Source of the DNA: Arabidopsis thaliana
Taxonomy: Eukaryota; Streptophyta; Magnoliopsida; Brassicales; Brassicaceae
DNA: 64,000 nt
Assembly (NCBI RefSeq): GCF_000001735.4
Contig: NC_003071.7
Location: 4,395,151-4,459,150, forward strand
Reading direction: 5' to 3'
Shown here: positions 13,682 to 60,456 of the stretch, piece after piece
Layout: each line of letters opens with the position of its first letter
How positions within the stretch are numbered: position 1 is the stretch's first letter
Notes under the pieces: generated by a model
Database searches by the model: none
Told to the model about the DNA's origin: nothing
The model's input: the letters and a program-made list of their open reading frames with translations, nothing else
Position numbers and translations under genes: made by a program

Positions 13682-16600
13682 ACTCCCCCAAACTTATCTC
13701 TTGCTTGCCCTCAAGCAAACAAAAAATCTTAAGTTGAAGGAGAGGTTTGAAGGTGGGGATTCAAAAACCGAAGCATGCATATAGAACGGGTAAGCTCAAT
13801 GTCCAGGTAGCTAATTCTAGATTGCAAGATGATAGACCCTTACTTAAAAACTTTAGCCATACTCGTCATAATGCAACCTAACAACCTGCCTTAATCTATT
13901 CAGGCATTCAGATCAACCAATTCCCTTTAACATTCATTAAGCACGAACAGTAGATCAAGCAATACAAAGGTTATAAACTCACTTGGTTTCGAGCTTAGGC
14001 TAAGAGACATAAATGGTCCCTCTAATGATTTGGTCGAGTAACAGGGGACTCTTAGAGAAAAGATTGAGCTTTAGCAGAATGCTAAAGGTAAAAGCCAACG
14101 GACACATCCAGTCCCATAGATGTCGTAACTCTACCCTTTTTCTCATTCTTTCTCTTTTTGGTTCAAGTTCTAAGGGGTTCTATTTTTAAACGATTCAAGA
14201 GTCTAGCGGATTTGGTGGTGAAACTCTGTGCCTTCCTGAAACCACTTCTTCAGGGCGGTTTTCTCGCACCATGGTGGCGCATGCGGAAGAGCAGCTCAGT
14301 ACAGCCTGAATTACGTTGATGGCCTTGCCACAATTTTCCAACATCTTGTCTTGAAACTTATTCCAAGCAGTCATCGAACCAATATTCTTATGCGCTTCAC
14401 TCAGACTCTTACTCACTCTTGGTGGTGGTTTGTGTTCCTCAAAATGGAACCTACTCGCATTGTAGTTCTCCCAATCCATCTCCTCCACTTCTTAATTCCC
14501 AGCCCTTTCTTCATTCTCAGCCCTTTCTTCATTGTTCGGAGCTTCTCTTGTCGGGGGTGCCCCATCCATGAAGAAAAGTGCCTCATTAGGAGGGTTGAAA
14601 TCGATGTTACACCTCACTGTGATGGTTGTGAGCTCTTGGCTAGGTATGAGAAGTCTGGCATCCATTTTCGTTCTATGCTGAAACTTGAGAATGTGCATCC
14701 CTTCATGACGCTGATGCTCAATGAACAAAGCCCATTTTAGGTAGGAATGTCGATCCATCTTGGGGCAAAGGGAGTCAACGGAAGTGGCACTGCACAAGCC
14801 ATTAGTATAGGTGTTATCACCCCTCCTATAGAAATGGTTCTCTTGTGTTTATTCGCTAGTGCTCATTTCCTGAAACCACAAAGATGATTCAATAAACGCA
14901 TTGACGGTGAGGCATCGTTTGTGTCACCTCTGAAACAACTCTACTTCCAGTGAAGCAAGAAACTGAAGCGCTTCTGTTTTGTAGGCTGAGTGAGGATTGG
15001 TGATGAGACCCAAAAGACCACTCTTTTCAAAGAGGTACTCGACATCTTTTGTTATGCCAAGCTCATTCATGGTTTGGGAGTGAGGGTATCGAGTTCCATG
15101 GAAATTGTGAACCGCCAAAAGCTCATAGTATCCATCCGGCGACAGCTTAGTCTTCTTCATCAAGGATTTGGTGGCTCTTGGAGTTATTTCAGGTACATAG
15201 TCTTCATCCCCACCAAGGTCTTCATCCACGAGGCTTCTCTCTTCCGCCATGGCTCTCTTACCTCTTGCAATTTCAGCTCTTCTTCTAACACGAGCTAGGA
15301 CTTTGACGGCTTGTTCACTGAACCGCCTGTATTCTTCCATCTCCCTCTCAGGCCTAGTAGACCAAGATTCTGCTTCATCTACGTTGAAATCAGCATCCAT
15401 TGAAGATTTGTTGCTTTTTGAACTCATGGTGATACTGAACTCTTAGAAACCAAAATCGAAGATTAATAGGTGAGTCAAAAACAAGAAGAAAAATCGATGT
15501 GTTTGGTCGAGTGAAAGAAAACTGAAGATTGAAATTTTGGGAATGATTTTGCTAAAGGAATCGAGTGAGAGAGATGATGGTTAGGTGCGATCAAAAGAGA
15601 AAAAGAAAAGAGGGTGAAAGCCTTATCTTTGATGTCGATTTGAATGAGTGGAGGAGGATGGTCTCCATGCTTTCTTGTTGGGATAAAGGGGGTTGACCAA
15701 ATAGCGTTGAGCAAAACGGGTTAATGCATTATCCGACGAGTAATAGAGTGATGGGGAAACAAGTGGGCCACTCGATCACCATGCTTGGTTGTCTAGTCAC
15801 TATACTTGACCAGTTCATAGAGTAAAATGATGATGCAAATTTACTCGACCAATTAATAGAGTAGAATTGCTTCTATAGTAGATATTTCTAGATTACAGAT
15901 TCCAGAGCTCTATAAATCCTAATTTATTTCCTGAACTCCAAAAACACTTAAAAGCATATCAAAATATCAAAATTAAATATGTACAGAGATGGGCATGGGA
16001 TTTCCTCCCAAGTGAGCTAGTTTAAAGTCTTAAGCTAGACTTCTTACTATTTTAGGCACTGATGGGCTCCTAGAGGTGAACTGTAGTTCCTTCAGGAATA
16101 GGGCAATCTGTAATGTAACGCTTGACCCTCTGTCCATTCACAATAAATTCAGAACTTCTCTTCTCGGTAATAGTAATTGCCCCATATGGCAATACTTCTT
16201 TGATGGTGAAAGATCCGGACCACCTGGATTTTAGCTTTCTTGGAAACAACTTGAGCCTGGAGTTGCATAGCAGAACTTGGTCTCCAATGTTGAAATATTT
16301 TGGTGAGATCTTTTTGTCATGAAAGGCATTTGTTTTTTCTTTGTAGATTTAAAAGTCTCATATGCTTCGAGTCTAATCTCTTCCAGTTTATGCTGGTCGA
16401 CTGCTCTTTTTTCTTGATCACCCTTGATTTTCAAGTTCAAAAGTTTGGTTGCTCAAATGGCTTTATATTCCACTTCGACTAGTAGATGACAAGATTTCCC
16501 ATATAGCATCTGGAATGGGGTTCTTCCAATAGGCGTTTTGTATGCAGTTCTATAGGCCCATAAAGTCTTATCAAATTTAGCTGGACAATCCCTTCTTTAG

Positions 16601-21667: not shown

Positions 21668-22033
21668 TTTTCAACTGTGGCTGAACTACGAAATATAGAT
21701 GGTTGGTCTCTTCCTCCTGCTAGAACAGAGAGACAAGTTCTTCTCCACTCTTTTATCTCTACTATTTCCATGTCATCAGCGAATGATACTCCGGTTTGGG
21801 CAATTGATGGTAGGCCTTACTTCTCTTTCTCTTCTAAATCTGTATGGAATGCTATTAGGATTTCAAATCAAGTTCAATCTTGGGTTCCTCTTGTATGGCA
21901 CAAAGCAGTCATTCCACGTCATGCTATCACATCCTGGCTTTTTATACTCAATCGTAACCCTACTCTAGATCGTTTATCTACATGGGGTTTTGATATTGAG
22001 TTGGACTGTCTTTTGTGTGGCTTTGTCAGGGCA
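21668..22033 (+). mobile_element. L1-type LINE, RT zinc-binding region
   Basis: The frame reads WSLPPARTERQ, then VWNAIRISNQVQSWVPLVWH and KAVIPRHAITSWLFILNRNP, ending LDCLLCG. This is the zf-RVT domain at the C terminus of plant L1 ORF2. It follows directly from the 19673 piece once the MULE and hAT are discounted and continues at 23503, where a Ty1/copia fragment intervenes. Confidence 0.88.
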
Positions 22034-23502
22034 TGAAGTGATGCTAGCAGACTGAAGCTTGGTGCTGAGGTAAGAGATTAGTTGTTGGATGTGATCTTTA
22101 GACATTATTTCATCCTGCATAACCGGTGCTTGATTTTCAGACTGATCGATGCTTGTTAGATTTGTACTGCCTACACAAGAACTCTGTTGATTTGCCCTTG
22201 GATGTCCCGGAGGATAGCCATGAACTTTGTAACACTTGTCAACAGTGTGACCAATACGATTGCAGTGAGTACATTTGGGTTTCTTGAAGTTTCCCTGAGC
22301 CATCAATATTGGATTCTGTTCAGTAAGCAAACCTTGAGTCTGAAAAGCAGCCGGAGAGGGAGTAGGTTTCGAAGCATGTCCAACCAATCGCTGACTCTCA
22401 TCTTGATCAAGCATGTTGTAAATTTCATTCAGTCCAGGTCTAGGCTTCATGTTAAGAATCTGACTCATGATAGTATTAAAGTCATCATTTAAACCCATCA
22501 AAAACTGAATGACTCTACTTGTTTCAGCATCTTCAAGCAGCTCCTTCACTTGATCACAGTCACACTTCTTCACACTACGAGTTTTAGTATTCAACAACTG
22601 TTCCCATAGAGTTTTCTTCTTTGTAAAGTAAGTGGATAGATTAAGAGATCCCTGCTTCAGTGTCATCACAGCTTGTTCCAGCTGATACTTCCTAGGCAAA
22701 TTATTCACCCTAAACCGAGTAAATAGATCAGTCCACATCTCAACAGCATCTTCATAATAAAGTATACTGTCATAAATCTCCTTGTTCACAACATTAAGAA
22801 TCCACGATTTCACCATACTATTGCATCTACTCCAGATTCGAAAAGTAGAATCATCAACAGAAGGTCGCAACAGAGATCCATCAACAAAACCCAGCTTGTT
22901 TTTCGCATCTAGGCTGATTCTCATCGCTATGGACCAACTATTATAGTTACTACCATCAAGAACATGAGCTACAATAGATAAACCTGGATGATCGGAGGAA
23001 TGGAGAATCAATGGGTTATCAACGTTGTCAGGAACCTTCGGATTTGACCCATTTCCACCATAAGCATCCGATCGTTGAGTAAGTTGCTGTTTCAGTGCCA
23101 TGAGCTTCTGATCTTCAAGGATCGTTGCTTCACGAGCAGATCTGACAGCTGAACCTTCATCATCCGTCATTGCACTTCGAGTCTTCATTTTTCCACCTTT
23201 CTTCACCATTTTTCTTCAAACTGAGCTCGCGGAAGAACAATCAATGATCAGAGAAGGAAGAATCGGTGAAGATGGAACAGAAACTGTAGAAACGAAGGTG
23301 AAATCACCAGATTTGTGTGAGGAAATGCTCTGATACCATATTAGAAGTCGAGAACAAAAGAGTTTTGTGAAATGATTTTCTATTTTCTCAAATGTAAAAG
23401 TAATTACAAAGCTGATTATATACAATTCTCCTAAACCAACTAAACCAAGCTACAATGTACAATCTAAGCTAAACCGGATTACAATAGGTAAGTTAATACC
23501 CA
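22034..23502 (-). mobile_element. Ty1/copia fossil: 5' LTR, primer site and gag only
   Basis: Read on the minus strand, a short LTR of about 163 bp (about 23502-23340) is followed by a classical Ty1/copia primer-binding site TGGTATCAGAGC (23338-23327). A long gag-type reading frame runs from 23209 to about 22034, with a copia-like N-terminal domain and a zinc knuckle with CTHCNRIGHTVDKC near 22250. Protease, integrase, reverse transcriptase and the second LTR are absent. LINE sequence lies on both sides (22033 and 23503), so it was inserted in the LINE. The gag frame looks open across its length but the element as a whole is a truncated fossil. Confidence 0.85.
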
Positions 23503-29146: not shown

Positions 29147-32100
29147 CTATATATTTGCTAATTCTGTGTAGATGTTAGCCGCGAATTTCTTCCTTGCGTT
29201 TCCAATAATATTTCCCTCAAGGTTTGAATGACTAGTATACATTGTATAGCACTCCATTATCTTCACAACGTAGATACCAAAATCTTCAATCTTAGGAGCC
29301 TACCACCAAAAACCAAAAGAATTTTAAGCATTTAATTTGGAAATTACTTGAGGAATAGAGGTCAAGACTCTGATATATTAAAGAAATTTAGAAATTTGTT
29401 GAGGAAAAGAGGTCAAGACTCTAATACTGAATGGAGAGACATCCATGTCCTCTTTTCTGAGGATGTTCTGAACAATGTATGGCACAACAATAGAGTAGGC
29501 ACCAACATGTTTTTTGTTAACTTCTTTTGTTAAAAAAGCTGATGCACAATCCCACACACAAACTGCCTTCTGTTCCAAGTGGATTAGCATGACGACCCAA
29601 CAAATTCCTTTAATACACAAAAGAGCGATTATGCACTTGATATCTTCCTCTATTATCAGGTTACAGATTTCTTCAGATGGAAATTGAAATCCCTCTTTGT
29701 CATCCACAAACTCCATGTATGACTCATCAATCACATTTAAAAAAGACAATCCAACTAATACAACAGTTTTATTTTTGAACATTTCTGGATTTCTTTCCTT
29801 CCTCGTTTTCAATAACTCCAATGCTGCATCAACAAGCTAAACACAAAACAAAAATAGAAATTATCATATAAGAAAATTGGTTTTACAAGGATTTTAAAAT
29901 ATTAAATATATTGTTGCTGTTATTGCTTTCCCTAGCGTTTCTAGCGTTGTAAACCACTTTGTATCTATATTATTTTCCGCAATTGTTAGTGCCCTAAAAC
30001 AACAAAACAGTCACCAATGATTTCAAATTTATAAATGCAAAAGCATGTTTTTAATTTTGTTCTTACTAACAAAAAACTCACTTGCATTTCCTTGACTTCT
30101 TCCCCTCAGCCAATTTCTCAACCCGTGATGCGTCAACTTTCGCAAATGGATACAATATTGGGTGCTTCTTCTTCTCAGCTGTGAAAGGTGGTTGTGTATG
30201 AATTGAAGGAATTGTACCTCGCTTACTTTTTCTTTGTGCAGTAGGATGATCATCATTGTCGCCAACAGGTGGTCCGTCAACATTATCAGCGTCGTCAACT
30301 CGACTTTGTTTGTTTGATCTTGTTGGAACATTATCACCATCATTGTCAATAATTTTTCTCTTCTTACTCAGTGTCTACCAAAAAGAAAAGAAAAACAGAT
30401 GTTTTAAATACCTTGTAAACAAAATTTTAGTTCCTTGCAAACATTCTTATACCATAAATTTCTCGCAATCTCATAACATATTACTTTTTTAAAAACCCTC
30501 ATATAATTTTTTAAATAAGATACTAACCTCTTTTCCTGTTGAAACATCATCTTGTTTCTGCCTCTTTCTCGGCGCCTAGAATAAATGAAAAACACTTTTT
30601 TAAAATTACTTTTAAAATCCCTTTTAAATATCATTACAAGACGATTGACAATTTTTAAAAATAGTTCCATTGTAAATATTAACCTGTTTTCTTACGCTTG
30701 GTTTAAGTCTCTTCTTCTTAAGTTGAAAGAAAGATAATTTTTTAAAGAAACATTACAAACACTTTGTGAGATAATACAAATTCTTTTAAATGCTAACGTC
30801 ATTTTTTCCTCAACTAACTCTCTTCTTATCCTTTTCAATATCCAGACTTTCTTTAGATAAAATATTGAAATTTGGTGTAGAGAATCGTGAAGTAGGAGAC
30901 TGATACTTCAAAAGATAACAGAATGTAAAGTTCTAAAAACGATACTAATCATTTTTGTAAAACTTTTAGAGAAATAAGATTACTTCAGTTTTGATGATTG
31001 TTCAGCTATTTCATCACCAATATCGCGTTGGGTGTTTTCATCATTACCCGGATAGCTCCCATATTGTATTTTTGGCTTTCAGATTGAATCTTCAAATGTG
31101 TCATTCTCATTCTGCAACAAAATAAAATAATTAGTCAATAGATAATATATGTAGTAAACCTTTAAAATACATATAAGATACATTGTAAACCTTCCTAAAC
31201 ACCTATTAAATAACTTTCTAAATACCTACTTAACGTTTAAAATTCATTGTAAAACCTTTGTAAGACTTTTTAAATAGCTTGTAAAGATTTTCAATTACCT
31301 CTTCTTTTCTTTCTACTCTTTCTTCTTCTGACTGCAAAAAAAAGAGTACACCTTTTTAATTAACTGTTGTAAATTGACTTAAATACGTAAAATCTTTATA
31401 AATATTCTTTTACCTGTTCTTTTCTTTCTTCATCTTCATCAGATCTCTGATTATTCTTTCTCTCCATTTTAATGTCTAAAATCTTCTCAATGAGCTCGAC
31501 TCACTTGTTAAGATCTTCAAGGATTGTAAAAATCCTGTCAAGATTCTCGCTATCAGATATTTTGTTATTCATTTTCTTTTCACCTACTTCTTCAAGGGCA
31601 ACAAAAACATCAATGCATCTTGTATTCATTCAGTTTTCTTCATTCTATAGCCCATCTTAAAAAGTTTCAGAACTTGTTGGAATTCTGTGTCATTTAGATG
31701 AAAACCAGGAACTAAAGACTTGAAGTCTTCTAGGTTCCTTATAATTGTATCCACCTCAATCTGCGAAGATACAATAACATTAAAAATCTTGAAAAAGCAG
31801 AACTTCAAATCTCAAAGCCATTCTAAATTACCTTTTGAAATCTCTTGTAAATCCTTTAAACCCTTTGTAAATTATTATAAACGACTTGTAATTCTATAAA
31901 AAAAACCCAATCTAAAACACTTTTTAAAATCTCTTGTAAATAATTTTTATACTAAGACATAACAATAAAACTCTTCAAATTATATAAATAGACAGACCAA
32001 AGCTTACATCAGTAGTTTGATTTACCAGGTTTACAACCTTGGAAAACTCTGGCGTACTAGTGCTTTTCCACTTCAATATCAAAGGATATTCAGATCAGTA

Positions 32101-35474: not shown

Positions 35475-36026
35475 TCAAGTTTTAGAAAAAGATAAACATG
35501 TAGATAGACAGATAATGATGGATAACACATTATGAAAACATTGTCTTTCAATATTTGGGACAATTAGCTCTTTTGTGTGCCCGAGATTTGCAACGGGAGC
35601 AACGTGGAATACTCTCTCGAACTCGGGGTTGAGCCCAGTAAGCTCCATGGATTTGTACCCATCCTCCGTCCTTTCCATAAGGTTCCATCCATAAACTAGC
35701 TCTACAACTTCATCAACCAAATTCTCATATGCGATTCCTTTGTATAATACAGCAGTTAAAGCATGTGGATTGTTGGCTTCAATATATTTTGTAAAGAAAT
35801 GATAATAGATGGAATGCGGCATTGACCACCACATAAAATACCGAGATATGTCAAGGCGGACACAACTTAGAGTTTCCTCGGAATAGACTGCCGCTTTAAA
35901 TAACAGACCAGCCTTAACAAAGGGTTTCAAAGCATCAACACCAGATTCTGAGTAGCTAACAATTTTAGCAAGCACCGGGGTGGCAAGTAAATTTATGGGA
36001 TAGCAACAACCTGTTGAAAAAAACAA
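35475..36026 (-). CDS. F-box-like protein of the Brassicaceae At2g35280-like type
   Basis: The frame reads YPINLLATPVLAKIVSYSES, resembling a degenerate F-box, then GVDALKPFVKAG, KAAVYSEETLSC and IYYHFFTKYIEANNPHAL, the pattern of a Brassicaceae F-box family whose members end in Sel1-like helical segments. F-box proteins of this sort would be substrate adaptors of SCF ubiquitin ligases. No stop interrupts 183 codons. The upstream edge reads TTTTTTTCAACAG before GTTGTTGC, a good splice acceptor, so the frame may be an exon joined to RPA-like exons upstream rather than starting at its first Met. The C terminus past ~35560 does not resemble the family. Family assignment is from memory of the pattern. 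Confidence 0.45.
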   Translation of the reverse strand: MFFSTGCCYPINLLATPVLAKIVSYSESGVDALKPFVKAGLLFKAAVYSEETLSCVRLDISRYFMWWSMPHSIYYHFFTKYIEANNPHALTAVLYKGIAYENLVDEVVELVYGWNLMERTEDGYKSMELTGLNPEFERVFHVAPVANLGHTKELIVPNIERQCFHNVLSIIICLSTCLSFSKT

Positions 36027-36099
36027 ACGGAAGAGATTGTTAGTATTTGCTTAAAGATGTAGTTAAAACTATAGAAAACTAAGTACTTTAGGTTTGGAT

Positions 36100-37620: not shown

Positions 37621-37996
37621 CAGAATATTACGTATTGAGGTGAGGTGGTTGTAATATTAGATAGATAATTCGTCTAGTGTCGTTTATAGTTGAGTTAGAT
37701 ATCTGTAATTAAATGCTAGATGTCTACATACTACTGTCCGTTAATGTTAAATGTAGACGACAAAGAGCAATGATACTATATAACTTCCACAAAATATATG
37801 TTCTGTCACAGAATATTACGTATTGAGGTGGGGTGGTTGAAATATTAGATAGATAATTCGTCTGGTGTCGTTTATAGTCGAGTTATTTATCTGTAATTAA
37901 ATGCTAGATGTCCACATACTACTGTCCGTTAATGTTAATTGTATACGACAAAGAGCAACGATACTATATAACTTCCCCAAAATATATGTTCTGTCC
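37621..37996. repeat. Tandem duplication, 188-bp unit, two copies
   Basis: CAGAATATTACGTATTGAGG begins both copies, at 37621 and 37809. They differ at only about a dozen positions over 188 bp by eye, so the duplication is fairly recent compared with its surroundings. It lies between the RPA-like exon 1 and the truncated F-box copy. Confidence 0.9.
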
Positions 37997-38289: not shown

Positions 38290-38472
38290 CTATCCTTCAT
38301 GCTCTCCGAACAGCTCCGCCCATAAGGTAGATCTATAGCATTCGGCAGCAAAATTCTCATATGCTATTGGTTTGTACAATACAACTTTCAAAGCATGTGG
38401 ATTGTTGGCTTCAAGACATTTTGTGAAGAAATGATAATAGATAAAATGGGTGAAGAAATGAAAAAGTAGCAT
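38290..38472 (-). pseudogene. Truncated duplicate of the 35475-36026 F-box-like ORF
   Basis: The peptide IYYHFFTKCLEANNPHAL matches the neighbouring F-box-like protein (IYYHFFTKYIEANNPHAL), and the downstream non-coding sequence also matches (ACATTGTCTTTCAA at about 38245 and 35535). Only the C-terminal third survives; the N-terminal F-box-like part is missing. This is a partial segmental duplicate. Confidence 0.7.
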
Positions 38473-38828: not shown

Positions 38829-41800
38829 TTATTCCCTATCCATTATGAACAATAGTGAATATATGTTAAGCAATACCTCGTTTCTTGTACCCCCACTATT
38901 GGAACTATGTGTAGGAGATGATTGGGGGTCTTTGTCAGCTTTGGAACTGATATCAAATACAGGCTTCCCAAACACAACCATTGCCTGAAATAAGAAGATA
39001 ATGTTAAAAACAATCCAAACAGTGTTGTCCAATAAAACATACCAGAAAAGTATGATACTTGTTATTGATGTATACTTTCATAGGATCAATGTTGACTTCA
39101 CAAACTCCTGAATGAGATGCTACAACCGTCTCCATGGTGACCTGAATGTTGAAGTACAAAAAAAGATGGTGAGAAAAAATAAGAAAATATTACCTGCAAA
39201 TTATAACGTATCCACAAACTTCTATCAAATATAAAAGTGAACATGCAATCCTAATTTAGTTTAGACATAAGGATGACCTTCTTTTTAAAAAACATTGGAA
39301 ACCCTAACAATAAATGAGATGCTGGAGGCCTCTCTATGGTGTCGTGAATGTTGAAGTACACAAAAAGATGGTGAGAAAAACATAAGAAAATATTATCTGC
39401 AAATTTTAAAGTATCCACAAACTCTTGTCAAATATAAAATTGAACATGGGATCATAATTTAGTTCAGACCTAATGTTGACCTTCTTTTTAGAGAACTTTA
39501 CCCTGTGGAGCATTTTTTCTATAAATGTTTGTTGCATTATGACTAAGAGATGCAACATACCTCTACAATATCTAATAAATCAATAAATGTAAATGATTAA
39601 CTGAAACTAGTTAGAAATGTATACCTCCATAGGATCATTGCCAATCTTTACTTCGGGTTGCGCCTCCGACACTAAATGCGATGTTGCAGGCATCTCCAAA
39701 GTAACCTGAATGTTAAAGTACACATGTAACTGGTTAGAATAAATATAAGAAATATTGCCTACAAATTATGAAGTATCCACAAAATCATGTCCAATAACAC
39801 AAAAACCGCAACCCGTAAAATGATACTTGTTATTACTGTATACCTTCATAGGAACACCGTCGATGTTGACTTCTGATTGAGTCTCTAGCAATGAATGAGA
39901 TGCTGCAGCCGTCTCGATGTTGTCCTGAAAGTTGAAGTCCCCAAAAATATGGTCAGAAAAAATAAAAGAAATATTGCCTACAAATTATGAAGTAACCACA
40001 AAATCTTGTCCAATAACACAAGAACCGCAACCCATAAAATAATACTTGTTGTTACTGTATACCTTCATAGGATCACAATCGATGTTGACTACTGGTTGAG
40101 ACTCTAACAATGAATAAGATGCTGCATTGCCCTATGGAGAATTGCCCTGTGGAGAATTATTTCTATAAATGTTTTTTTGGACAAGGACTGAGAGATGAAG
40201 CATGCCTCTCCTGTGTCCAATAAATCAAGGAACTAGTTAAAAATGTATACTTCCATAAGATCATCAAGTTGTGGCTCCACCACTTATTGAGATGCTGCAT
40301 CCGCCTCCAAAGTGACCTGAATGTTGAAGTATACTTGTAAGTATCCACAAAATTTTGTCTATAATAACTATGCACATGTGCCATTATTTGGTTTAAGGAC
40401 TAGGATGCAGAAACTCTCCCCAATGTGTTATATCAAATTATATATTAGCTTACCTCCGTCATTGGATCATCGTCAATGTTTTCTTCGGGTTGCGTCTCCA
40501 ACACTGAAAGAGAAGCTTCAACCGTCTCCAAGGTGTCCTGAATAATGAATTACAAACGAATATGGCTTAAGGACTGTGACAATAAGTATGTTTAAGGACT
40601 GGGATGCAGCAACCCTCTCCGATGTGTTCCCACAAATTATATATTAGCTTACCTCCATAATATTATCTTGCTCGAGAGGAGGTTGTTTTTTGTTGCTTAG
40701 GTTTGCACTTGAATCAAACTGATTGTAAAGTACAATAGTCAAAGGTGTCAGAATCTATAAACTGTTAAATAAATTGTTTGATTTGTTCTGTTTGTATTTA
40801 TAAAAGTACCTGAATTTTGCCCTCCTCATCTGCTTCATTGCCATTTGGATCTTTGACATCAGTGTCATAAATTGGGTTGCCTTCTTTTGCATCATCCTTA
40901 TAAGATTCCTGTGATTCATTTGGAGTATGATAGACGTCAATGGTGTCATCAGTAATCACCTGAAACAAGATTTGTTGACGTAATCAATTCTACCAAGGAG
41001 ATATTGGAAATTAAATATTACACTAACCGTGTTTGTCAATGTGGTTCTATAAAAGGAGTCCTCTTGAAACTTCTGGAATTCAGCATCAACAACTAATATA
41101 CAAGCGGGGTGGGGGGGGGAAGAGGAGGAGAAAACATCTCGTGAATTATCCTTTTGCTCAAATTGATGTTATCAAGAGTGAACTTTTTTGATTAAGTACA
41201 TATAGATGTGGTAACAGAATAATCAATAAACACATAAGGTTGAACCAGCAGACCTCAAAATCAAATTCCTCATTCTGGTGCTCAGACAGCGTGTGTGAAT
41301 GAGATGGATTCTATGAGGAAAATAAAGAACCTAAGGGGTTTCAGATTGGATAGGTACCTCCAATGACTTCTTGCGCTTTGATCTAGAAGAACATGGAACA
41401 AAACTGAAGGAGAGTTTTCTGGACCGCTTGAATATGATAGCTTTTCTTTTCTTTTTAAGCTTCATTACACGATTTGATAGCTCTTCCACCGTGTTTTGTA
41501 GTTCAACGAGCAACCTAGACTTCTCATCATGAGATAGCTTTAGTTATGGATTAGTACGAGTTGAATACCTATGCCATGATTTGACAGGGTCAGACTTCAC
41601 CCGTAGTCTCTTCTTACGATCCACAATGTGCTATTTGTGAACAACAAATAGCTTCTTCTTTGAGATTTTAATTGATGGCAATGTGCATCACCTCTTGGCC
41701 ATTCGCTTTTTTTGAATTGATGAGATGTCAGTATCGAATCTTTCATGTGCGCAACTTTCATATCTTTCACCTCATCATCCCACTCTGTCCAACTTTGGTG

Positions 41801-42860
41801 AACATTAATATCTTCAACTATAAGCGGATCCACTAGTCTCTATTGAAAAATAGAAGGTTATTATTAGTAAATAAGACTGGATATATAGAAAGAGAATATT
41901 ATAGAGACCATATAGAAACTTTTGGGTTAATAAAAAAATACCTTAAGGTTGCTTTCTAAAGCGTGAATATGAGGAAGGGATATCTGTTGTGTTGGATGAG
42001 TTAAATTTTCCAATGAATGATTGTCAAGGAGGTGTCGTCAAAGGACAACAAATCTACCATTCCAGGTATGTTACGAAATGCTAAGAGCTGCAGCGCATGC
42101 GGGAACCTTTAAGACGGAATGAGATGTGTTGAAGTTGCTTCTCCAAATTCTGAATAGGATCGTTTGTGAGCTGTCTTTTACCTGTGCACTTATCGAGAAT
42201 CCGTTTCTCGGGTGTCATCGCTTCTACCGTCTTCATAAATGACTCTCTACCACAAGGAAATGAAAGGAATTTCTCTAGATCTGCCAACATCTCTACATAT
42301 TTAAATGTAGGCCTACCAGTTTGGTTCGATGCTATGAGGACACCATCTACAATTAGTAGAAACGCGAGCTTCAGTTTGTGCTCAGAAGACAATTTCTTGC
42401 GTCTCTTGGTTAGCATGGCTGATATATCCCCTAACGTAACCGTCTTGTCTGGACCAATTAACTCGTTCCGGTAACTCTTCTTGCCATCATCATAAACCGG
42501 AGTATTTTCAGGGTCGTACTCCACCGGAAACTCCCCACAAGGCAAGCCAGCCAGGGAAGCAAATTCAAGTAGTGAAAATCACATTGGGTGTGTCCAAAAC
42601 TCATACTTTTTCTTAGTAACCAACTTCCTACATAGTAAGGCATGAATGACTTTACCCGAAGTCGCAACCCTACTAACCGACAAATGGAATAGAGATCCAA
42701 AGCATGACTGAAGAATAAAATCGAATTTCTCTGTCTCATCAAAAACCTTCCGGACAAAGGATAGAATATCTAGTCTAGAGTATACATTCAGCCTTCCCTT
42801 CGAATATTGATCGCTGGCGAAGAGTCCATTAGGAAGTTTTGAATCCCCACTGAGAATATG
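38829..42860 (-). pseudogene. DUF1985 ULP-like gene with tandemly repeated linker exons
   Basis: The N-terminal DUF1985 region lies at about 42860-42100 on the minus strand: LSGDSKLPNGLFASDQYS, LVTKKKYEFWT, then LPCGEFPVEYDPENTPVYDD and LKLAFLLIVDGVLIASNQTG. A TGA interrupts it near 42580 within the conserved FSLREF-type motif. Next comes a block at 41833-41600 with WTEWDDEVKDMKVAHM and FKKSEWPRGD, then a Lys-rich coiled segment (41513-41331, LQNTVEELSNRVMKLKKKRK). The rest is a linker of small exons repeated in tandem (39060-40560). No Ulp1 catalytic domain follows; F-box-like remnants begin at 38472. It is probably a truncated relative of the gene at 29147-33131. Confidence 0.65.
39060..40560 (-). 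repeat. Tandem array of a small exon plus intron, at least six copies
   Basis: On the minus strand a short exon coding a variant of ETAAASHSLLETQSEVNID, ending in DPMK or similar before a GTATAC or GTAAGC donor, recurs at about 39130-39080, 39706-39630, 39930-39845, 40125-40070, 40320-40260 and 40540-40455, with a poorer copy near 39330. The intron begins are alike as well (CTTCAACATTCAGG on + next to most copies). Spacing is about 190-300 bp, so whole exon-intron segments were duplicated. One copy (about 40290) contains an in-frame TAA. Confidence 0.8.
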
Positions 42861-42879
42861 TGATGGGTTGAGTTGTTAA

Positions 42880-43660
42880 ATGGGTTAACCCATTTAAATA
42901 AGAATTTAATTAATTATTATTGTAAAACAAAAATAAATAATTATCGTTATTAATAATTATTATTTCATTACGGATTCTACTTTTACGGGTTTACGTTTTC
43001 GGCGGAAAAATTACGGGTTTACTTTTTTGGCGGAAGAATCATGGGTTTACATTTTTTTCGGGAAAATTACGGGTTTATGTTTTTGGCGGAAAAATTACAG
43101 GTTTACGTTTTTGGCGGGAAAATCACGGGTTTACGTTTTTTTGGCGGAAAATATTATTTTCTAATGTAATTTAGCAAATATGATTTATTTATATATATAT
43201 ATATATATATAATTATAAATATCGAATTAATATGTTTGAATTCAAAATTGGCTTAAATATTCTAAATTTATATAAATAACTGTAATAACATTTAATTAAA
43301 CCATCTTTTATGTTTCATAATTAAAATATAAAAATATTTTTAAACATTAAAAAATAATACATTTTTGGTTTGATATTTAAATATTAATTTTCATAACATT
43401 TATTAATTTCCGCTTTGAAAATAATTCATAACTTAAATATACAAAATTATTTTCGAATCTTATTTAATTTGATCTATTTACGTGTATTTAATATGATTGA
43501 TTGAGTATTCGAATATGATATAAAAATTATGATTATACTCCCTAAATCTGATATTATAATCGTTTAAAACAAGCATATTCCACAAATTTATAATTATGTA
43601 TATTTAATATGAATGATCATTGATTGAGTATTCAAATATGAAAATGAAAATTTTCATTTA
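42880..43660. repeat. Minisatellite ACGGGTTTACGTTTTTGGCG (42975-43150) in AT-rich sequence
   Basis: Six or so copies of a 28-31 bp unit built on GGGTTTACGTTTTTGGCGG and AAAATTAC lie between 42975 and 43150. A (TA) run follows at 43190-43210. The remainder is very AT-rich, with no coding signal. Confidence 0.85.
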
Positions 43661-46918: not shown

Positions 46919-47102
46919 TGTTACAAATAATTGATGGATGCCCATTATAAGGCCTATCTTCTAGAATTCTCTAGAATTATTTGTATCTAGAATTTTATTT
47001 TGTCACCAAGTAAAATTCTTCACTTGTACTCCTATATAAAGGACCCTTTATTCATTGGAATAATACACTCATTTTGTACAATCTCTTTCTCTAGTTACAA
47101 CA
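46919..47102 (+). repeat. 5' LTR of the copia fossil
   Basis: The 184-bp LTR contains a TATA-like CCTATATAAAGG near 47032 and ends immediately before CGTTATCAGCGCGC, a position expected for a primer-binding site. Confidence 0.88.
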
Positions 47103-50100
47103 CGTTATCAGCGCGCTTTAAAAGAAACAATGAATGGTGGAGAAATATGCTTGGCAGACAATGCAACTAATCATACTATTTTAAAAAATAAGAGATATTT
47201 CTCTTTTTTGACAATGAAAGAAGCAAGTGTAACTATCGTAACAGGTAGTGCAAAGATAATTGAAGGCTTTGGAAGAGCAAATATAGCAATGCCTATGGGA
47301 ACAAAATTAGAGATTGTGGAGGCCTTATACTCTCCTAAATCTCAAAGGAACTTATTAAGTTTTAAAGACATCTGCAGAAATGGATATCATATTGAGACTA
47401 TAAGCGAAGGTAGTATCGAATACCTTCGAATCACAAGTAATATCCAAGAATCTCAAAATATTCAGGAAAAACTACCTGCTTTCTCCACTGGTTTATATTA
47501 TACTACAATTAATACAATTGAAGTAAATGCTACAGTAAACCAGAACTCTACAGAAAACATTAAAGTTTGGCATGACCGGTAGGCCATCCCAGTACAATAA
47601 TGATGCGAAAGATAATCACGAATTCATGTGGACATTCATGAAAGAACCAATAGATTCGTCCTAATGATTTTTCATGTGTTGGTTGTTCACAAGGCAAGTT
47701 GATTATACGGCCTTCACCAGCTAAGATAAATTTCGAATCAATCAATTTTTTGGAATGAATACAAGGAGATATTTGTGGGCCGATTAACCCATCATGTGGA
47801 ACTTTATAATCCTTTATGGTTTTAATTGACTCATCTAGAAGATGGTCGCATGTATCCCTATTATCAACTCGAAACCTGGCGTTTGCAAGATTGCTTGCTC
47901 AGTTGATTAGAATACGAGCATATTTTCCAGACTTTCCTTTAACAAAAATGTGTCTTGATAATGTTGGTGAATTCACATCTCAAGCTTTTAATGACTATTG
48001 TATGTCTATTAGGATAAGTGTTGAACATCCTGTAGCACATGTTCACACACAAAATGGTTTATCAGAATCACTAATCAAGTGTCTTCAATTGATTGCTAGA
48101 CCATTACAAATGAAATCAAAACTCCCAATATCTGCTTGGGGACATGCTATATTACATGTAGCATCATTGATTCGCATCAGGCCAACAAGTAATCATAAGT
48201 TCTCTCCATCTCAACTGGTTCTCGGTGAGGAACCAAATATTTCTCATCTCAAAGTTTTTGGATTGTGCTCTATATGTTCCAATTGCTCCACCACAGCCAT
48301 ATAAGATGGGACCTCAAAGAACGTTGGGAGTATATGTTGGTTATGATTCCCCATCAATAATTAAGTATCTCAATCTATCTATAGGAGATTTATTCAAAGC
48401 TCGATTCGTAGACTGTCATTTTAATGAGTCTGTTTTCCTAACATTAGGGGGAGAAAATAAATAGTCGGGAAAAGATATAGTTTGGAATGAATTATCAATG
48501 TCTTATCTTTATCCTCGGACTAAAGAGTGTGAATTAGAAGTCCAAAAGATAATTCATTTACAGAGTTTAGCAAATCAGCTGCCAGATGCATTCATTGACC
48601 CAAAAAGTGTGATCAAATCACATATACCGGCTGCAAATGCTCCAATAAGAATAAATATCCTAGAAGGACAAAATCAAACTGTAAATGAGTCTAAGACATG
48701 TTTAAAGCGTGGTAGACCTATTGGTTCCAAAGATAAAAATCCTCGAAAAAGAAAAGGGGCAAAAATTGGCATAGGTAAAACAGAGGATATAATTACAAAT
48801 GAAGAATCTCCAGAAGAGAGCTTAGACATGACACATAAAGAAATTCAGGTACCTGACAATGAAGAGATCTCAATTACTTATGTCATGTCTGGAATAAAAT
48901 GGAACCAAAAGCAAATCGATATCCATGATATTTTTGCATGCAATGTAGCAGTTGATGTTATGGATGAGGATCATGAACCAACATCTATTGAAGAGTGTAC
49001 ACAAATAAGTGATTGGCCAAAATGGAATGAAGCAATAGATGCTGAATTAAAATTTCTTGCAAAGAGAGAAGTGTTTAGACCAGTAGTCCGTACATCCAAA
49101 GGTGTAAAACCAGTTGGACATAAATGAGTTTTTGTACTAAAGAAGAATGCAAATGGTGAAATTGTGAGGCGTTTAGTCGCACAAGGATTCTCACAAAGAC
49201 CATGAATTGACTATGAAGAGACATGGTGACTTGATTTACGTTTGATGGATGTTGTCACAACCTATTTATACGGTCTACTAGAAAATGACATTTATATGAA
49301 AGTCCGAGAAGGATTAAAAATGCCTCAAGCAGTAAATTCAAATTCTCGAGAACAATACTGCATAAAATTAAATTGATCCCTTTATGGATTAAAAGAATCA
49401 GGGCGTATGTGGTATAATCGCCTTAGTGAGAACTTGCTAAAAGAAGGCTACAAAAATGACCCTGTTAGTCCATGCATCTTTATAAAAATTTTGGGAAAGG
49501 ATTTGTTATAATTGCAGTTTATGTTGATAATTTAAATATTATGGGAACTATTGCAGAGATCTCATTCACTGTAGAATATTTAAAGAAAGAATTCGAGATG
49601 AAAGATCTTGGAAAAACGAAATTTTGTTTAGGACTACAAATCGAACACCTAAAGAACGTAATTCTGGAGTATCAAGAGACATATACCAAAAATGTTCTCA
49701 AAAGATTCTATATGGATGGAGCATACCCCTTGAGTAGTCCAATGGTTGTAAGATAACTTGATGTGGATAAACATCCATTCCGTCCTTGGGAAAACAATGA
49801 AGAAGTTCTTAGTCCTGAAGGACCATACTTAAGTGCAATATGAGCACTGATGTATCTTGCTAGTCATATAAGACCTTATATATCATTTGCGGTGAATTTA
49901 TTAGCAAGGTTCAGCTCATGTCCAACTTGAAGGCATTGGAATGGAATTATACATATACTTTGTTACCTCCAAGGTACGAAAGACATGGGTCTGTATTTTC
50001 CTAACAAATCCAAGTAGCGAGTGCGAGTGTGTATGGCTAAGATCCATAGTTCACCATATACAAGAAGATTGTGGTTTGTATGCAGGGAAAAAGGCTCCAA

Positions 50101-51199: not shown

Positions 51200-53815
51200 A
51201 ATAGTTTTTTTTAACCTCTTCAGATCGACAAGCCCGATCCACAGTTAATCTCTACTACACGGATAAGACGATTTACTGGATTCGAATTCCGATAGAAAAA
51301 GCGGAGTGTAATGGAGCTAACCACTTGACTAAACACTATTGAATTAAACACCTTAGAACCTAGAAGATTGCAAGTATAAAAGACTCTTTCTTTTATTAGT
51401 TAAGGAAAATAACTCAAAACCTAAACCTTACAAATCTCTCAAGTTCTCAAAACACACACAAGTTATGTCACACTTTGACATCTCCTTATATAGAGAACTC
51501 TTATACTTAATCCAAATCTAATTAGGATTGTATTTAAATAACTCTTAAACACTTCGTTAGATAACTCCTAAAGACCGAAATATTATCTCTTTAATAACTT
51601 ATATCTTAAGTTATCTTCAAGCTTACTTCAACATTCTTCCCCTTAAGCTTGAACTCACATTTCACCACATCTTGAACTCCAACAAGATCTCTCATTTCCT
51701 TGAACTTTATCCTTGCAAGCGCCTTAGTTCAGATATCGGCTCTCTGCTCCTTACCGGGAATGTGCTCTACTTCAACTTGCTCATTCATAACACATTCTCG
51801 GATAAAGTGATATCTCTTGTATATACGTTGGCTTCGACCATGAAAAACAGGAATCTTTGTAAGAGCTATTGTTGACTTGTTGTCGATTAGAATGGAACTT
51901 TCTTACACGATTCTCCAGTGATTTCTCCGAGAAGCTCTTGAAGCCAAATGGCTTGTTTTGCTGCTTCAGCGGCAGCCATAAACTAAGCTTCACACGATGA
52001 CAAAGCCACGTTTTCTTGTTTCTACGAACACCAACTTATGGGACAGTTGTTAAGGTAAAAGATGTGACCTGTTGTGGTTCTACCATCGTCTTCATCAACG
52101 TTGTGGTTGCTGTCACTGAAACCTATTAACTTTGTTTAATTCATCCGCTCAAAACAGAGTCCATAGGGCGGAGTTCCTTTTAGGTACCAAAGAACTTGTT
52201 CAAGTGCTACTCCATGGGATTCTTTTGGCTCATACACGTACCTGCTAAGAACTCTGACAATGTAAGAGAGATCCGGTCTTGTGTGAAGTAGGTATCGAAG
52301 ACAACCAATGTTTCTCGTGTACTCCTTCTCATCAATGCCGTTTTCTCCTTGTGCTTTACATAGTTGACATTCACATCCATTAGAATATACACTACATTAC
52401 AATCATCTATTCTTGCTTCTTCGAGAACCTTTGATGCATATCTCTCTTGTTTTAGCATACTCCCTTCTTCATGTTGAATTACTTTAATGCCTAGGTAGTA
52501 AGTTAGCTTTCCAAGGTCACTCATCTCGAATTTTCCCGCCATTCCTTCTTTGAATTCTAGTATTACTTGTAAGTTGGACCCTGTGACAAGTAAATCGTCG
52601 ACATAGACAGCTACAACAAGAAACTCATCATTCTCCCTCTTTTGATACAGAGATGGTTCCTTGGAATACTTAACGAATTTTTGCCCCAGAAGAATCTTGT
52701 TCAATTTGTTGTCCACGCCCTAGGTGCTTGTTTAAGTCCATAAAGTGCTTTGTTCAGTTTATAGACTTTATTTTCGCTTCCCTCTATCACAAAACCTTCA
52801 GGCTCAGGCTACGAGACGTAGACCCGTTCTTTCAACTCACCATGAAGAAACTCTGTTTTCACATCAAGATGATGTACCTCCCATCCTCTAGCTACTGCTA
52901 ACGCAATGATAAGTCGGATTGTTTCAGTGCGAGCCACAATAGCAAACACTTCATCAAAGTCAACACCATGTCTTTGCACATAACCTTTAGCCACAAGTCT
53001 TGCTTTGTGTTTATTTATACTTCCATCCGAGTTTTGTTGGATCTTAAAGACCCATTTCAGTCCAATTGGTTTAGCTCCTGTAGGAAGACCAACTAAATCC
53101 CAAGTGTGGTTCTTTTCAATCGATGAGATTTCTTCTACGCACGCTTGTGTCCATTCCTTTGACTCCTTTGCGTCATTGAAGTTCCATGGCTCTTCGTTTA
53201 TTGCAAACAAGAGTCTCTCGCATTCTGTTTGATCCATCAAGATATAGTCATGTAAGTGTCTTGGCCTTGAAGTCTCTCTCTGCGACCTTCTTAATGTTGT
53301 TTGTGGTGGTGCTTGTTGTTCTTCTGTTTATGTGTCAAGAGTAGGCGGCACATGTTCCTCGACTGGTTCTGTATCATGACTTTCATCCCTCTTGTGATTC
53401 TCTGTTTCTCCATTGACTTTGGCTTCCCTTATACCATTGTTTCCAAATTCACCAAATGATAAACTGAACAAACCTGAGTCACTATTAGTTTCATCTTTAT
53501 CATTACTCCACCTCCAGCTCTTAGTCTCATCAAAAACAACATATCTACTCACTACTACCTTCTTCTTTGTTGGATCCAATAGACGATATGCTTTCGAGCC
53601 GGGCTCTGTTCGGAGGTGTACTAGCATTCGTGAGCAATCATCCAACTTCTTTAAGTTCACAGTCTCTACTTTTGCGTACCCAATGCAACCAAATACCCGT
53701 AAGCGCTCAACGTTCGGTTTCTTTCCTATGAAGGCTTCGTATGGTGTTTGGTTAACTAAGGTTCTCGTTGCCACTCTATTTATGAGATAGGTTGCATGTC
53801 TCACCATAGATAGTT
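51200..53815 (-). mobile_element. Ty1/copia fossil, minus strand, 5'-truncated
   Basis: Read on the minus strand, an integrase C-terminal region lies at 53807-53328 (HATYLINRVATRTLVNQTPY), reverse transcriptase at 53240-52207 (including AVYVDDLLVTGS near 52600), with RNase H remnants to about 51650. A polypurine tract AAGCTTAAGGGGAAGAA precedes an LTR that starts TGTTGAAGTAAGC at 51633 and runs left to an uncertain end near 51200-51340. The 5' LTR, gag, protease and most of integrase are missing. Several breaks interrupt the frame. It is a different family from the 46919 element. Confidence 0.8.
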
Positions 53816-54427
53816 TGGAATATTCATTAACGGTTATTTTTTCCGTTAGTGTCTTTTATCGCAACTTCTCATACAACTGTATTTTTTATCTAAACAGTTG
53901 TGTCTATTAAAATATTGACAGTTACTCTTTTACATTCGTGTCTTTTAATCGTAAACATTAGATTACTAATTAAATATCGGAAATTTTGCTTAAATCAAAA
54001 AATATCACATTTAATATCAAATTTTTTATAGATTACTAATTTACTACTCGAAATTCAAATACTATCGATTAATATTTAAATGTATATATATTACATCCGT
54101 CTATTTAGGTGGGCTTTATCTAGATAAGATGAAAGTACAGTTTTACAAGTTACAAACTCATATGATTGTGCCACGTGTCAAATATAACGATCAGATGTTT
54201 TACTGTATCACTAAAAATTTAATTTTTTTATTTTTTTTTTTAAAATAAAAAAACTAAAAAAGTAAACAAATTTACATATACTAATTTTATTATATATATA
54301 TATATATATAGACAAATATTTTGATCAACCTAAAGGAAAATTTACAAATTTGTTACTACATGTGTTATTGGTCGATTAAATAAGTCTAAAATGTATTAAT
54401 TCAAAATAGAATCATTAGTATGAATAA
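53816..54427. repeat. Two minisatellite units (53825-53960) and AT-rich spacer
   Basis: Phrases AAACAGTTGTGTCTATTAAA, ATTGACAGTTACT and TTACATTCGTGTCTTTT occur here in the same order as in the array at 61905-62370. A related copy of the 34266 AT-rich repeat lies at about 54335-54400 and a TA run at 54290-54311. No gene is visible. Confidence 0.7.
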
Positions 54428-57440: not shown

Positions 57441-57857
57441 CGGTTCCTATTCATAATTGGAGATTTCAGCGGGACCACCGTTGTGTCCAATACAGATAAA
57501 GTGGGGTATGTTTTCTTTTGTGGAAATTACGTATAAGGGCTTCCATTATTTTTATGAGAAAACGAAACCCTCTGGCCGAGTTCGGGTTTTTGTTTTGTTA
57601 AGTCATAGTCAAAGTTAGGAAACGTCTGATCGTTATGGGCTCAACGAAATCGTAAATGGACCTTAAACGGAAATTCTTCTTATCTTAGAAACGAAGTACG
57701 TGTTGAAGTCAACTTGTCTTCCTCGTCGACAAATTCAATGACGGAGTGGGAGCTGAAAGAAACGACGGAATTTATGAGATTTTCAAATCAACGAAATTAG
57801 TTAACAGGTTGGTGAATAAAATGATTTAATACTCAGACTCTCTTTAGTTTTTTTTTT
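57441..57857. other. Region between F-box remnant and MULE transposase
   Basis: The sequence may contain further decayed FBA remnants (reading frames with GDFSGTTVVSNTDK at ~57460), but I cannot support a boundary. No MULE terminal inverted repeat was recognised. Confidence 0.35.
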
Positions 57858-60456
57858 TTGAAATTAGCTAAATTTTTGGATTGGCAGTTTAGATGCTTTA
57901 AATCTTTAAGAACTAGTGATAAATCTGTGAATCTTTTTGTGTGTTTTAGAGAAGGTGATTCAGTTATAGTCGACACTACTTCTGAAGCTGGAAAGACTTG
58001 CACAACCATTGCTAAGTGTTTAGAAGCTGGAGAATCATCATCTACAAGTATTGTACAGACTAGAGTTAAACCCCTTGCTGCAGTGGAAGGAGGATACTTT
58101 GCTGGTCTGTTATCTTCTGTTCAAGTTAATACCACTGTCTATCCTCCCAACCCTCAGTTTGCTATTGTTCAGAGTACAGATGGTTGTAAAACATCCAGTG
58201 AATGGGGCATAAGCGATGAACTTCTGTTAGAAGCCCTAGAAGCAGTGGAGAACTCAACTAATGGTGTGAATACATCTATAGCGGTAGAAGTTCTTGTGTC
58301 GGGTGATGACTATGAGTTCTTAGGAAACTCTGATGATTATTTCTCTCTCAGTACAGGGAGTGAATCAGAAGATGATGAGTTCGATGACGATAACCACACT
58401 ACAGGTCCGCTTCAAGCTGGGAAAGAAACCGTTGTATATGGAGACAATGGGGATGATGATTTTGTTAAGCAGCCCCCTAAAAAGAAAGTCATGCAAAAAG
58501 AAAGTAATGTTGGTGCTATGAAAGAGTTTCTGGAAACATTTCAGAAAAGTATAAGCATTGATCAAGTGTATGGGTACGACGAAATTGAGCCAATGTTTGG
58601 AGATGATGATATGGATGCAAAAGCAGCTCATGTTAACTTGAGCAAAGAGAATGACAATATGTTTGTCGGAAGGACCTTTGCATCAAGGGAAGATTTCAGG
58701 ATTGCCTTGTCCATTTATGCCATAAACTTTATTTTCCGCTTCAAATTTACTAGGTATGAGAAACATTACTTGGTTGTTGAATGTTATGATAAACAATGCT
58801 GTGATTGGAGAGTCAGAGCACACCAAGTTGGGGACAGTGAAGAGTATGAGTTCAGGAAGGCAAAGTCGGAACATATGTGTAAGGTTGAGACTAGGAGCCG
58901 CTTTTCAAAACATGTTACTTCTAAGGTTATAGCTGCATTCCTAAGGGCTAAGTATGCGAAGGCGTTCTGTGGGCCAAGAGCGAGAGACTTACCCGATTCT
59001 CTGTTGAGGGAGCACAATGTGCGGATGACGTATTGTGGATGTTGGAAAGCTAAAGAACTGGGTGTTGAGACAGCTCAGGGCACAAATGAGAGCTCTTTCT
59101 CCTTGTTACCAGTATATCTTCACGTCTTATAACTTGCAAATCCTGGCACAATTTATCATTTGGAAACAGAGTTGGTATTGGTGATGAGCGATTCAAATAT
59201 GGTTTCCTAGCATTGGGGGCTAGTGTAAAAGGGTTAATATATCTTCGGAGAGTCATTGTAGTAGATGATACACACCTTTTTGGTAAGTTTCTTGGCTGTC
59301 TTCTTACCGCTAGTTGGCAGGATGCAAACTTTTAGATTTTCCCAATAGCTTTCTGTAGTGGACAACGAGACTGATGAATCATGGACATGGTTCATGAATA
59401 AGCTTTCAGAAATAATCAAAGATGGCCCAGACTTGACATTTGTCTCAAATTGCAATCAATCAATATTCAAATCCGTGAGTCTTGTGTTCACTCAAGCACA
59501 CCATGGAGCTTGTTTGGTCCACATAAGAAGGAATGTTAAAGGAAGGTAAGGAAAGAAGAGTGGCCTTCCAGCTTTAGTGTGGCAAGCAGGTAACACATTT
59601 CGGCTCAAATATTTTAATAATGTATGTGAAAGGATCAAGAAAAGGAGTATGGGCTGTTGGAAATATATAGAAGAAATGGGTCTTGCGAATTGGAGTAGGG
59701 TTCATTTTACATGGGAGAGATATAATTTGATGTCTAATAACATTGTTGAGTCTTTGAACAATGCTTTACTACCAGCTAGGGGAAGTCCAGTTGTGGCATT
59801 GCTTAAATTTATAAGGAAAATGCTTGCTAGGTGGTTTGAATCAAGGAGGAAAAAAATATCTAGATTAGTCGGGGACATACCTATTGCGGTTGAAAGGGAA
59901 CTTATGAAGCGGTTCAAAGGTGCTTTGGGAATGTCTGTTCCGGCTGTTGGGAGGAGTTGGGATTTCTAAGTAGTTGCAAAGGATGGAGTACAGTCCCACG
60001 TCTCCTTGGAACAACAGACTTTCACTTGCTTGGAGTTTCAGAAAATCGAAATACCCTGTACGCATGCAATGGCTGCCGCTCATGATAGGGGTTTGGAATT
60101 CAGATCTTTGGTTGGAGAGATGCATAGGCTAGGAATGTGGTCACCAACGGTCCAAGAACCAATCCTCCTTGTACGCGATCCATCGGAGGTGGATGTCCCT
60201 GAGGAAATAAGGGTTCTCTGTTTAATGCCTCCGAAAATAAAAAGACCTCCTGGGAGACCCCCAAAGCTGCGAATACACTCAGTTGGGGAATATGAGGTCA
60301 GTTATATTTTTTCATCCATATATTTCTATATAATTCAAAGGTAACAATACTTTTTGTCTTATTTCGGGGATAAGAAGTCTAAAACGCCTCATAAGTGTGG
60401 AAGATATGGAGGTGTAGGTCACAATTGTGTTACGCGCAAGAATCCCCTTGGGTGAC
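57858..60456 (+). pseudogene. MuDR-type MULE transposase, nearly full length but broken
   Basis: The first frame (57858-59132, 424 codons) carries an acidic N-terminal region and the MuDR DNA-binding domain (VGRTFASREDFRIALSIYAI, CCDWRVRAH, about residues 272-345). The MULE DDE domain follows at 59170-59970: VIVVDDTHLFGKF holds the first Asp, CLVH the CxxH motif and NNIVESLNNALLPARGSP the Glu region. The expected SDR of the second Asp reads SNC (59445-59455), a probable Asp-to-Asn change. A SWIM-like finger lies at 60023-60070 (TCLEFQKIEIPCTHAMAAA) with its first Cys as Phe, and a zinc knuckle (KCGRYGGVGHNCVTRK) at 60390-60440 has lost two Cys. Stops occur near 59130, 59333, 59547 and 59968, with a frame change near 59175. 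The element's ends were not found. Confidence 0.82.

Follow-up and report, generated by a model that had tools for sequence, protein, structure and literature searches.

A stretch of Arabidopsis thaliana DNA of 64 kb (C2:4,395,151-4,459,150, hereafter the window) contains seven exon-like units arranged head to tail on the minus strand, spanning positions 39,076-40,537, each 66-84 bp long and coding for 22-28 residues. Considering these units together with their relatives elsewhere in the genome, we think it probable that they form a tandem array of symmetric modules, situated in the linker between the DUF1985 and Ulp1 domains of a Kaonashi/KIU-type, VANC-like gene that belongs to a VANDAL-type Mutator-like transposon (MULE). 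The window copy itself is a pseudogene and the dead remnant of such a gene.

That the array of exons and introns is real, as a preliminary description of this DNA had proposed, is confirmed by the repeat and profile searches. TRF reports period arrays of 203 bp at 39,111-39,490 and of 219 bp at 39,731-40,126, a repeat search of the window gives families with up to six copies, and an nhmmer profile seeded with four of the window units returns seven matches in the window, all of them on the minus strand (E 6.8e-9 to 8.5e-29). The TRF arrays and the profile matches rule out a chance repeat. Where at least six copies of an exon of about 75 bp had been expected, seven are found; the exons are present but not uniform in length, and some are remnants, so that not all of the copies are usable. 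The peptide pattern ET..ASHS..ETQPEVNID..DPMK/E is correct as a pattern, with variation from unit to unit.

All seven units lie on the minus strand. Unit 1 (40,454-40,537; 84 bp; DTLETVEASLSVLETQPEENIDDDPMTE) is open and is bordered by AG and GTAAGC, while units 3 (40,063-40,131; 69 bp; GNAASYSLLESQPVVNIDCDPMK), 4 (39,844-39,924; 81 bp; DNIETAAASHSLLETQSEVNIDGVPMK), 5 (39,625-39,705; 81 bp; VTLEMPATSHLVSEAQPEVKIGNDPME) and 7 (39,076-39,141; 66 bp; VTMETVVASHSGVCEVNIDPMK) are likewise open and are bordered by AG and GTATAC. Unit 2 (40,251-40,316; 66 bp) has these same borders and an in-frame TAA, and unit 6 (39,278-39,343; 66 bp) is an exon remnant in which the acceptor reads AC in place of AG and the donor reads GTCATC. 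An AG acceptor, a GT donor, a whole number of codons and an open frame are accordingly combined in five of the seven units. Phase-compatible splice sites, the absence of which had been named beforehand as evidence against a coding array, are therefore present.

Comparison of the 100 nt situated 5' of each of the seven window units gives pairwise identities of 53-91%. In seven of the 21 pairs the identity is above 0.74, the highest value among 200 shuffled pairs (shuffled mean 0.60), from which it follows that the duplicated unit includes the intron, and many of the window intron pairs are now no more alike than chance. Introns that repeat along with the exons, with identities reaching 0.91, would also be expected of a non-coding minisatellite within an intron, the open frames of which would be due to chance or would be fossils of one captured exon. 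We consider that reading unlikely on the strength of the frame and splice sites of the relatives, to which we return below.

When the array is used as a DNA query against the whole genome (119.66 Mb, 7 contigs), 32 pieces match, from which 13 further loci (L040-L052) of 9.2-9.5 kb each were taken, making 14 loci with the window; weaker pieces at C2:4,615,357 and C3:11,713,300 were left out of the set. The unit profile has 59 matches over the 14 loci. There are eight units in L040 and L044, seven in the window, L041, L042 and L043, two in L046-L052, and one in L045, so that the copy number does differ between related copies, as had been suggested, with one to eight units among the paralogues of a single genome. 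In 51 of the 59 units an AG and an in-frame GT are present and there is no stop; this count depends in part on the model, since donors were tried at lengths of 66, 69, 81 and 84 alone. In an earlier pass, in which donors were taken from a predetermined set of hexamers, the count was 45 out of the 58 units with a settable start. L041-L044 are close copies of each other, and their units are not independent observations.

The order in which units match between loci provides further insight into how the array has changed. The best matches of window units 1-6 in L040 are, in order, its units 1, 3, 4, 5, 6 and 7, and window unit 7 is slightly better matched by L040 unit 4 than by any later unit of that locus. 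In L044 and L043, window units 3-7 pair in order, whereas units 1 and 2 have changed places, with window unit 4 having no partner of its own and sharing that of unit 3. A second unit of the first type is present in L040 and L044. This order of best matches indicates that, since the divergence of the elements, modules have been added, removed and shifted in position. Several other parts of the linker are duplicated as well, because exon e is doubled in L041-L044, exon g reads like the beginning of a unit fused to the last part of exon d, and subfamily B has blocks of 443-445 bp containing exon e that are repeated two to three times in L049 and L050.

The arrangement of the gene can be seen in less decayed relatives, of which intact ones lie, for instance, at C4:10.55 Mb and C5:14.16 Mb. 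In L041, Pfam places DUF1985 (E 8.8e-40) before the array and Peptidase_C48 (E 5.4e-59) after it, in agreement with the DUF1985/ULP-like family originally proposed for the gene. By position, 11 of the 13 relatives (all but L045 and L046) have a C48 match downstream on the same strand, and a MULE transposase domain (PF10551) lies on the opposite strand within 20 kb downstream in at least nine of the 13 among the matches listed. This domain is found at 20.3 kb in L047, and among the matches listed there is none within 20 kb in L043, L045 and L049 and no PF10551 neighbour of the window copy. The positions of C48 and the transposase relative to the array were compared by eye. DUF1985, which is a mark of VANC genes, is detected by Pfam both in the window remnant and in the relatives.

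For L043, an exon model drawn by hand contains 14 consecutive linker exons (57-150 bp) that lie between AG and GT and are in phase 0 at both ends. When joined they give 383 residues free of stops, with 87 D/E against 23 K/R, and the linker is thus acidic, as predicted. Among the 13 introns every length class modulo 3 is represented, and in 10 of them there is a stop in the frame continued from the exon. Pfam finds no family in the spliced linker at E<=1, and its composition suggests that it is disordered; a phmmer search of the Ulp1 exon against solved structures gives no match at E<=0.01.

The window gene departs from this arrangement at several points. Its DUF1985-coding exon remnant (42,084-42,875, minus strand), with a Pfam match of E 4.5e-24 over 42,084-42,578, has a TGA in frame at 42,579-42,581 and loses its frame at about 42,105, the latter judged by eye from the window ORFs against L041; the DUF1985 match of the genome search (C2:4437375-4437785) contains one TGA. 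Two linker exons are situated 5' of the array on the minus strand, exon d (40,810-40,959; 150 bp, phase 0), which is identified by an nhmmer match and has the borders CAG/GTACTT, and exon e (40,653-40,718; 66 bp; FDSSANLSNKKQPPLEQDNIME). Exon o (38,877-38,984, minus strand; 108 bp; AMVVFGKPVFD...GTRNE), read from the sequence and with a homologue in L043, is situated 3' of it. At 38,448-38,461 the collinear BLAST alignment of the window to L044 leaps from L044:6633 to L044:9143, which marks a deletion junction on the minus strand where about 2.5 kb are gone relative to L044, including the Ulp1-coding exons. Consistent with this, the L041 Ulp1 protein has no match in the 64-kb window at E<=1e-3, and a Peptidase_C48 domain downstream in the same gene is lacking in the window copy and present in most relatives. 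On this alignment, the deletion has juxtaposed to the array gene a piece of the element's following gene (38,293-38,454, minus strand), 54 residues of which match an L049 ORF at 80% identity in tblastn. The gene that follows the DUF1985 gene in the relatives has left a second remnant at 35,475-36,050 (minus strand), which tblastn aligns to that L049 ORF at 74% identity over 94 residues and in which Pfam detects no family. Between the two downstream-gene fragments there is a direct repeat with a period of 188 bp, in two copies at 94% (37,621-37,995).

Because of the stop and the frame loss in the DUF1985 exon, the stop in unit 2, the loss of the acceptor of unit 6 and the deletion of the Ulp1 end, the window copy cannot make the full protein, and the gain of a repeat region in a protein, as had been envisaged, is not supported for this copy. 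Given that its Ulp1 region is deleted, we class it by descent as a truncated relative and not as a full KIU gene.

Other elements are present in the same window. A Peptidase_C48 fragment at 29,381-29,836 (minus strand, E 1.2e-20) is not matched by the L041 Ulp1 protein at E<=1e-3 and apparently comes from another element. A separate MULE at 57,825-60,260 (plus strand) has a MuDR DNA-binding domain (E 3.4e-10) and, after it, a region that shares 37% identity with the transposase ORF of L046; its place and orientation do not fit with its being part of the array element. Remnants of retroelements, with domains of ATHILA ORF1, copia-type gag, Pol BBD, RVT_2 and SH3_retrovirus, are situated at 14,927-15,442, 21,977-23,215 and 52,210-53,855 on the minus strand and at 47,064-47,579 on the plus strand.

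Between representatives of the two subfamilies, pN/pS is 0.24 in DUF1985 (L041 vs L050, one per subfamily, 230 codons) and 0.32 in Ulp1/C48 (L041 vs L048, one per subfamily, 173 codons). The value for eight unit types is 0.75 in frame 0 as against 1.31 and 1.26 in the shifted frames, with a bootstrap interval of 0.54-1.12, a value of 1 or more being reached in 7.7% of 2000 replicates; owing to this interval the signal is suggestive and not firm, and the frame constraint on the units is weak. In the linker exons of the youngest copies, which are about 1-2% apart, pN exceeds pS in five of five pairs and is not below the divergence of the introns, as in L043 and L044, where pN is 0.025, pS is 0.013 and the introns differ by 0.020.

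A bootstrap interval that takes in 1, and linkers that show no purifying selection in the youngest copies, are again what one would expect of a minisatellite that codes for nothing. On the other hand, AG and GT with an open frame of whole codons are kept in 51 of the 59 units, when the probability that one stretch of 66-84 nt is open by chance would be 0.20-0.29 (assuming exon-like composition), pN/pS is lower in frame 0 than in the other two frames, and one phase is held throughout the 14 consecutive linker exons of L043. Although the frame signal alone is not firm, conservation of frame and splice sites together leads us to reject a minisatellite by itself as the main explanation.

Repeats of this general kind have been described before. 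Passages of Hosaka et al. 2017 (PMC5735166) report peptide motifs in tandem in VANC proteins and, in VANC genes, exon/intron structures linked to repeats, speculate on a role of VANC repeat variation in target specificity, and leave the parts of VANC that set specificity to future work. As to the remark that the repeat was not familiar from described ULP-like proteins, related VANC repeats are in print (passages of PMC5735166); a keyword search, in which the peptide itself was not used as a query, finds no published account of this particular one. The array is a further case of a known kind of repeat, in a DUF1985+Ulp1 branch. The VANC genes of VANDAL6/7/8/17/21 resemble the array gene in having DUF1985 and a variable region with tandem motifs and an exon/intron structure tied to repeats, and also in their MULE element if, as is probable, the array gene is MULE-borne, but the Fig. 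5 legend of the same source marks DUF1985 together with DUF287 (passages of PMC5735166), whereas here the relatives end in Ulp1 C48 and DUF287 (PF03384) has no match in the array gene over the 14 loci at E<=0.001. As DUF287 is absent, we do not class the array gene as a VANC of the DUF287-bearing type, and it belongs to a branch outside the VANDAL6/7/8/17/21 genes with published dot plots.

The array gene resembles Kaonashi/KIU genes in that C48 is found in a probably MULE-borne gene of many copies, with DUF1985 in the same gene as found here. Hoen et al. in 2006 reportedly described Kaonashi or KIU genes as belonging to ULP1-carrying non-TIR MULEs. The array subfamily differs in having a linker exon array, the comparison being with two other DUF1985+C48 loci (L053 and L054), and L053, which lies outside the subfamily, has no internal repeat. 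In L054, related repeats are situated at about 1-160, 1143-1224, 1992-2412 and 3267-3519 (strand turned), mostly between or outside ORFs of at least 80 aa, although the 5' repeat reaches an ORF start at 156 and the last overlaps an ORF start at 3466; this layout resembles the published VANC-target pattern. The names Kaonashi and KIU are used for ULP1-carrying MULE genes in passages of two sources (PMC6117577, PMC13317346), and the second, in the passages concerned, counts some VANC genes as KIUs with an anti-silencing effect and cites Sasaki et al. 2022 for ULP1-carrying VANCs with such an effect (PMC13317346). VANC1 targets are named in a passage of PMC10398659. VANC1 of VANDAL1 (Sasaki et al. 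2022), which we count among the nearest described systems, is in our view probably the ULP1-carrying VANC. Two Ulp1-family genes, one of them marked DUF1985, have altered transcript levels in MET1 lines according to passages of PMC5821449, and as far as can be told from these they are not loci of the array subfamily.

The conservation of C48 between L041 and L048 (pN/pS 0.32) would equally suit a plain deSUMOylating ULP that happens to have a repeated linker and has no tie to anti-silencing. That is quite unlikely in our view, as the domain has DUF1985 for a partner, the gene is present in many copies and has a MULE transposase as a neighbour, and passages of PMC6117577 consider KIU proteins unlikely to act on SUMO.

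A different proposal, partly compatible with the explanation that we favour, is that the repeat is a DNA target, the unit introns being a VANC-type binding array with which the exons hitch-hike. VANC21 binds tandemly repeated motifs in VANDAL21 introns (passages of PMC5735166), the unit introns do repeat, and the word TTGTGGATAC occurs four times in the window gene. However, this word is confined to the array region, where it occurs one to four times per locus in the five loci examined, splice-site words account for many of those enriched in L041-L044, and, poly-T apart, every 9-mer falls short of five copies in at least one of these four loci. The target motifs of VANC21 and VANC6 are found zero to one time per locus over the 14 loci, and k-mer enrichment over 9.5-kb stretches of L041-L044, which are not full elements, gives no convincing new dense motif. 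We regard a binding array as very improbable.

Just upstream of the array gene, at 42,983-43,156 of the window, there is a minisatellite of 28 bp. A stretch at about 704-835 of L044, approximately 0.9 kb before the DUF1985 ORF, is 71-73% similar to it and has four GGCGG-A cores, and a pattern search finds this core absent from the other 12 loci. The 28-bp minisatellite is possibly a regulatory or target repeat.

In the explanation that we favour, a symmetric-module array in a transposon gene, each module consists of an exon and an intron in phase 0-0, with its own AG and GT and a length of whole codons. Unequal recombination or slippage between modules would then add or remove 22-28 residues and leave the frame intact, the frame surviving such gain and loss because every module brings its own splice sites and a whole number of codons. 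The relatives presumably splice and express the array, and reviews and family resemblance suggest that the encoded protein may be an anti-silencing factor like VANC. Changes in the linker may help such proteins to diverge, in line with the speculation of Hosaka et al., and the repeats may have a role in target choice. It is also conceivable, if highly doubtful, that duplication of one module changes both partners, the exon lengthening the repeat of the VANC-like protein and the intron adding the DNA target of that same protein; if true, the co-evolution of reader and target would proceed by single steps. The array would provide a countable case of an anti-silencing-type transposon protein changing its length without loss of frame, and the series of paralogues with 1 to 8 units would be natural material on repeat number and target choice.
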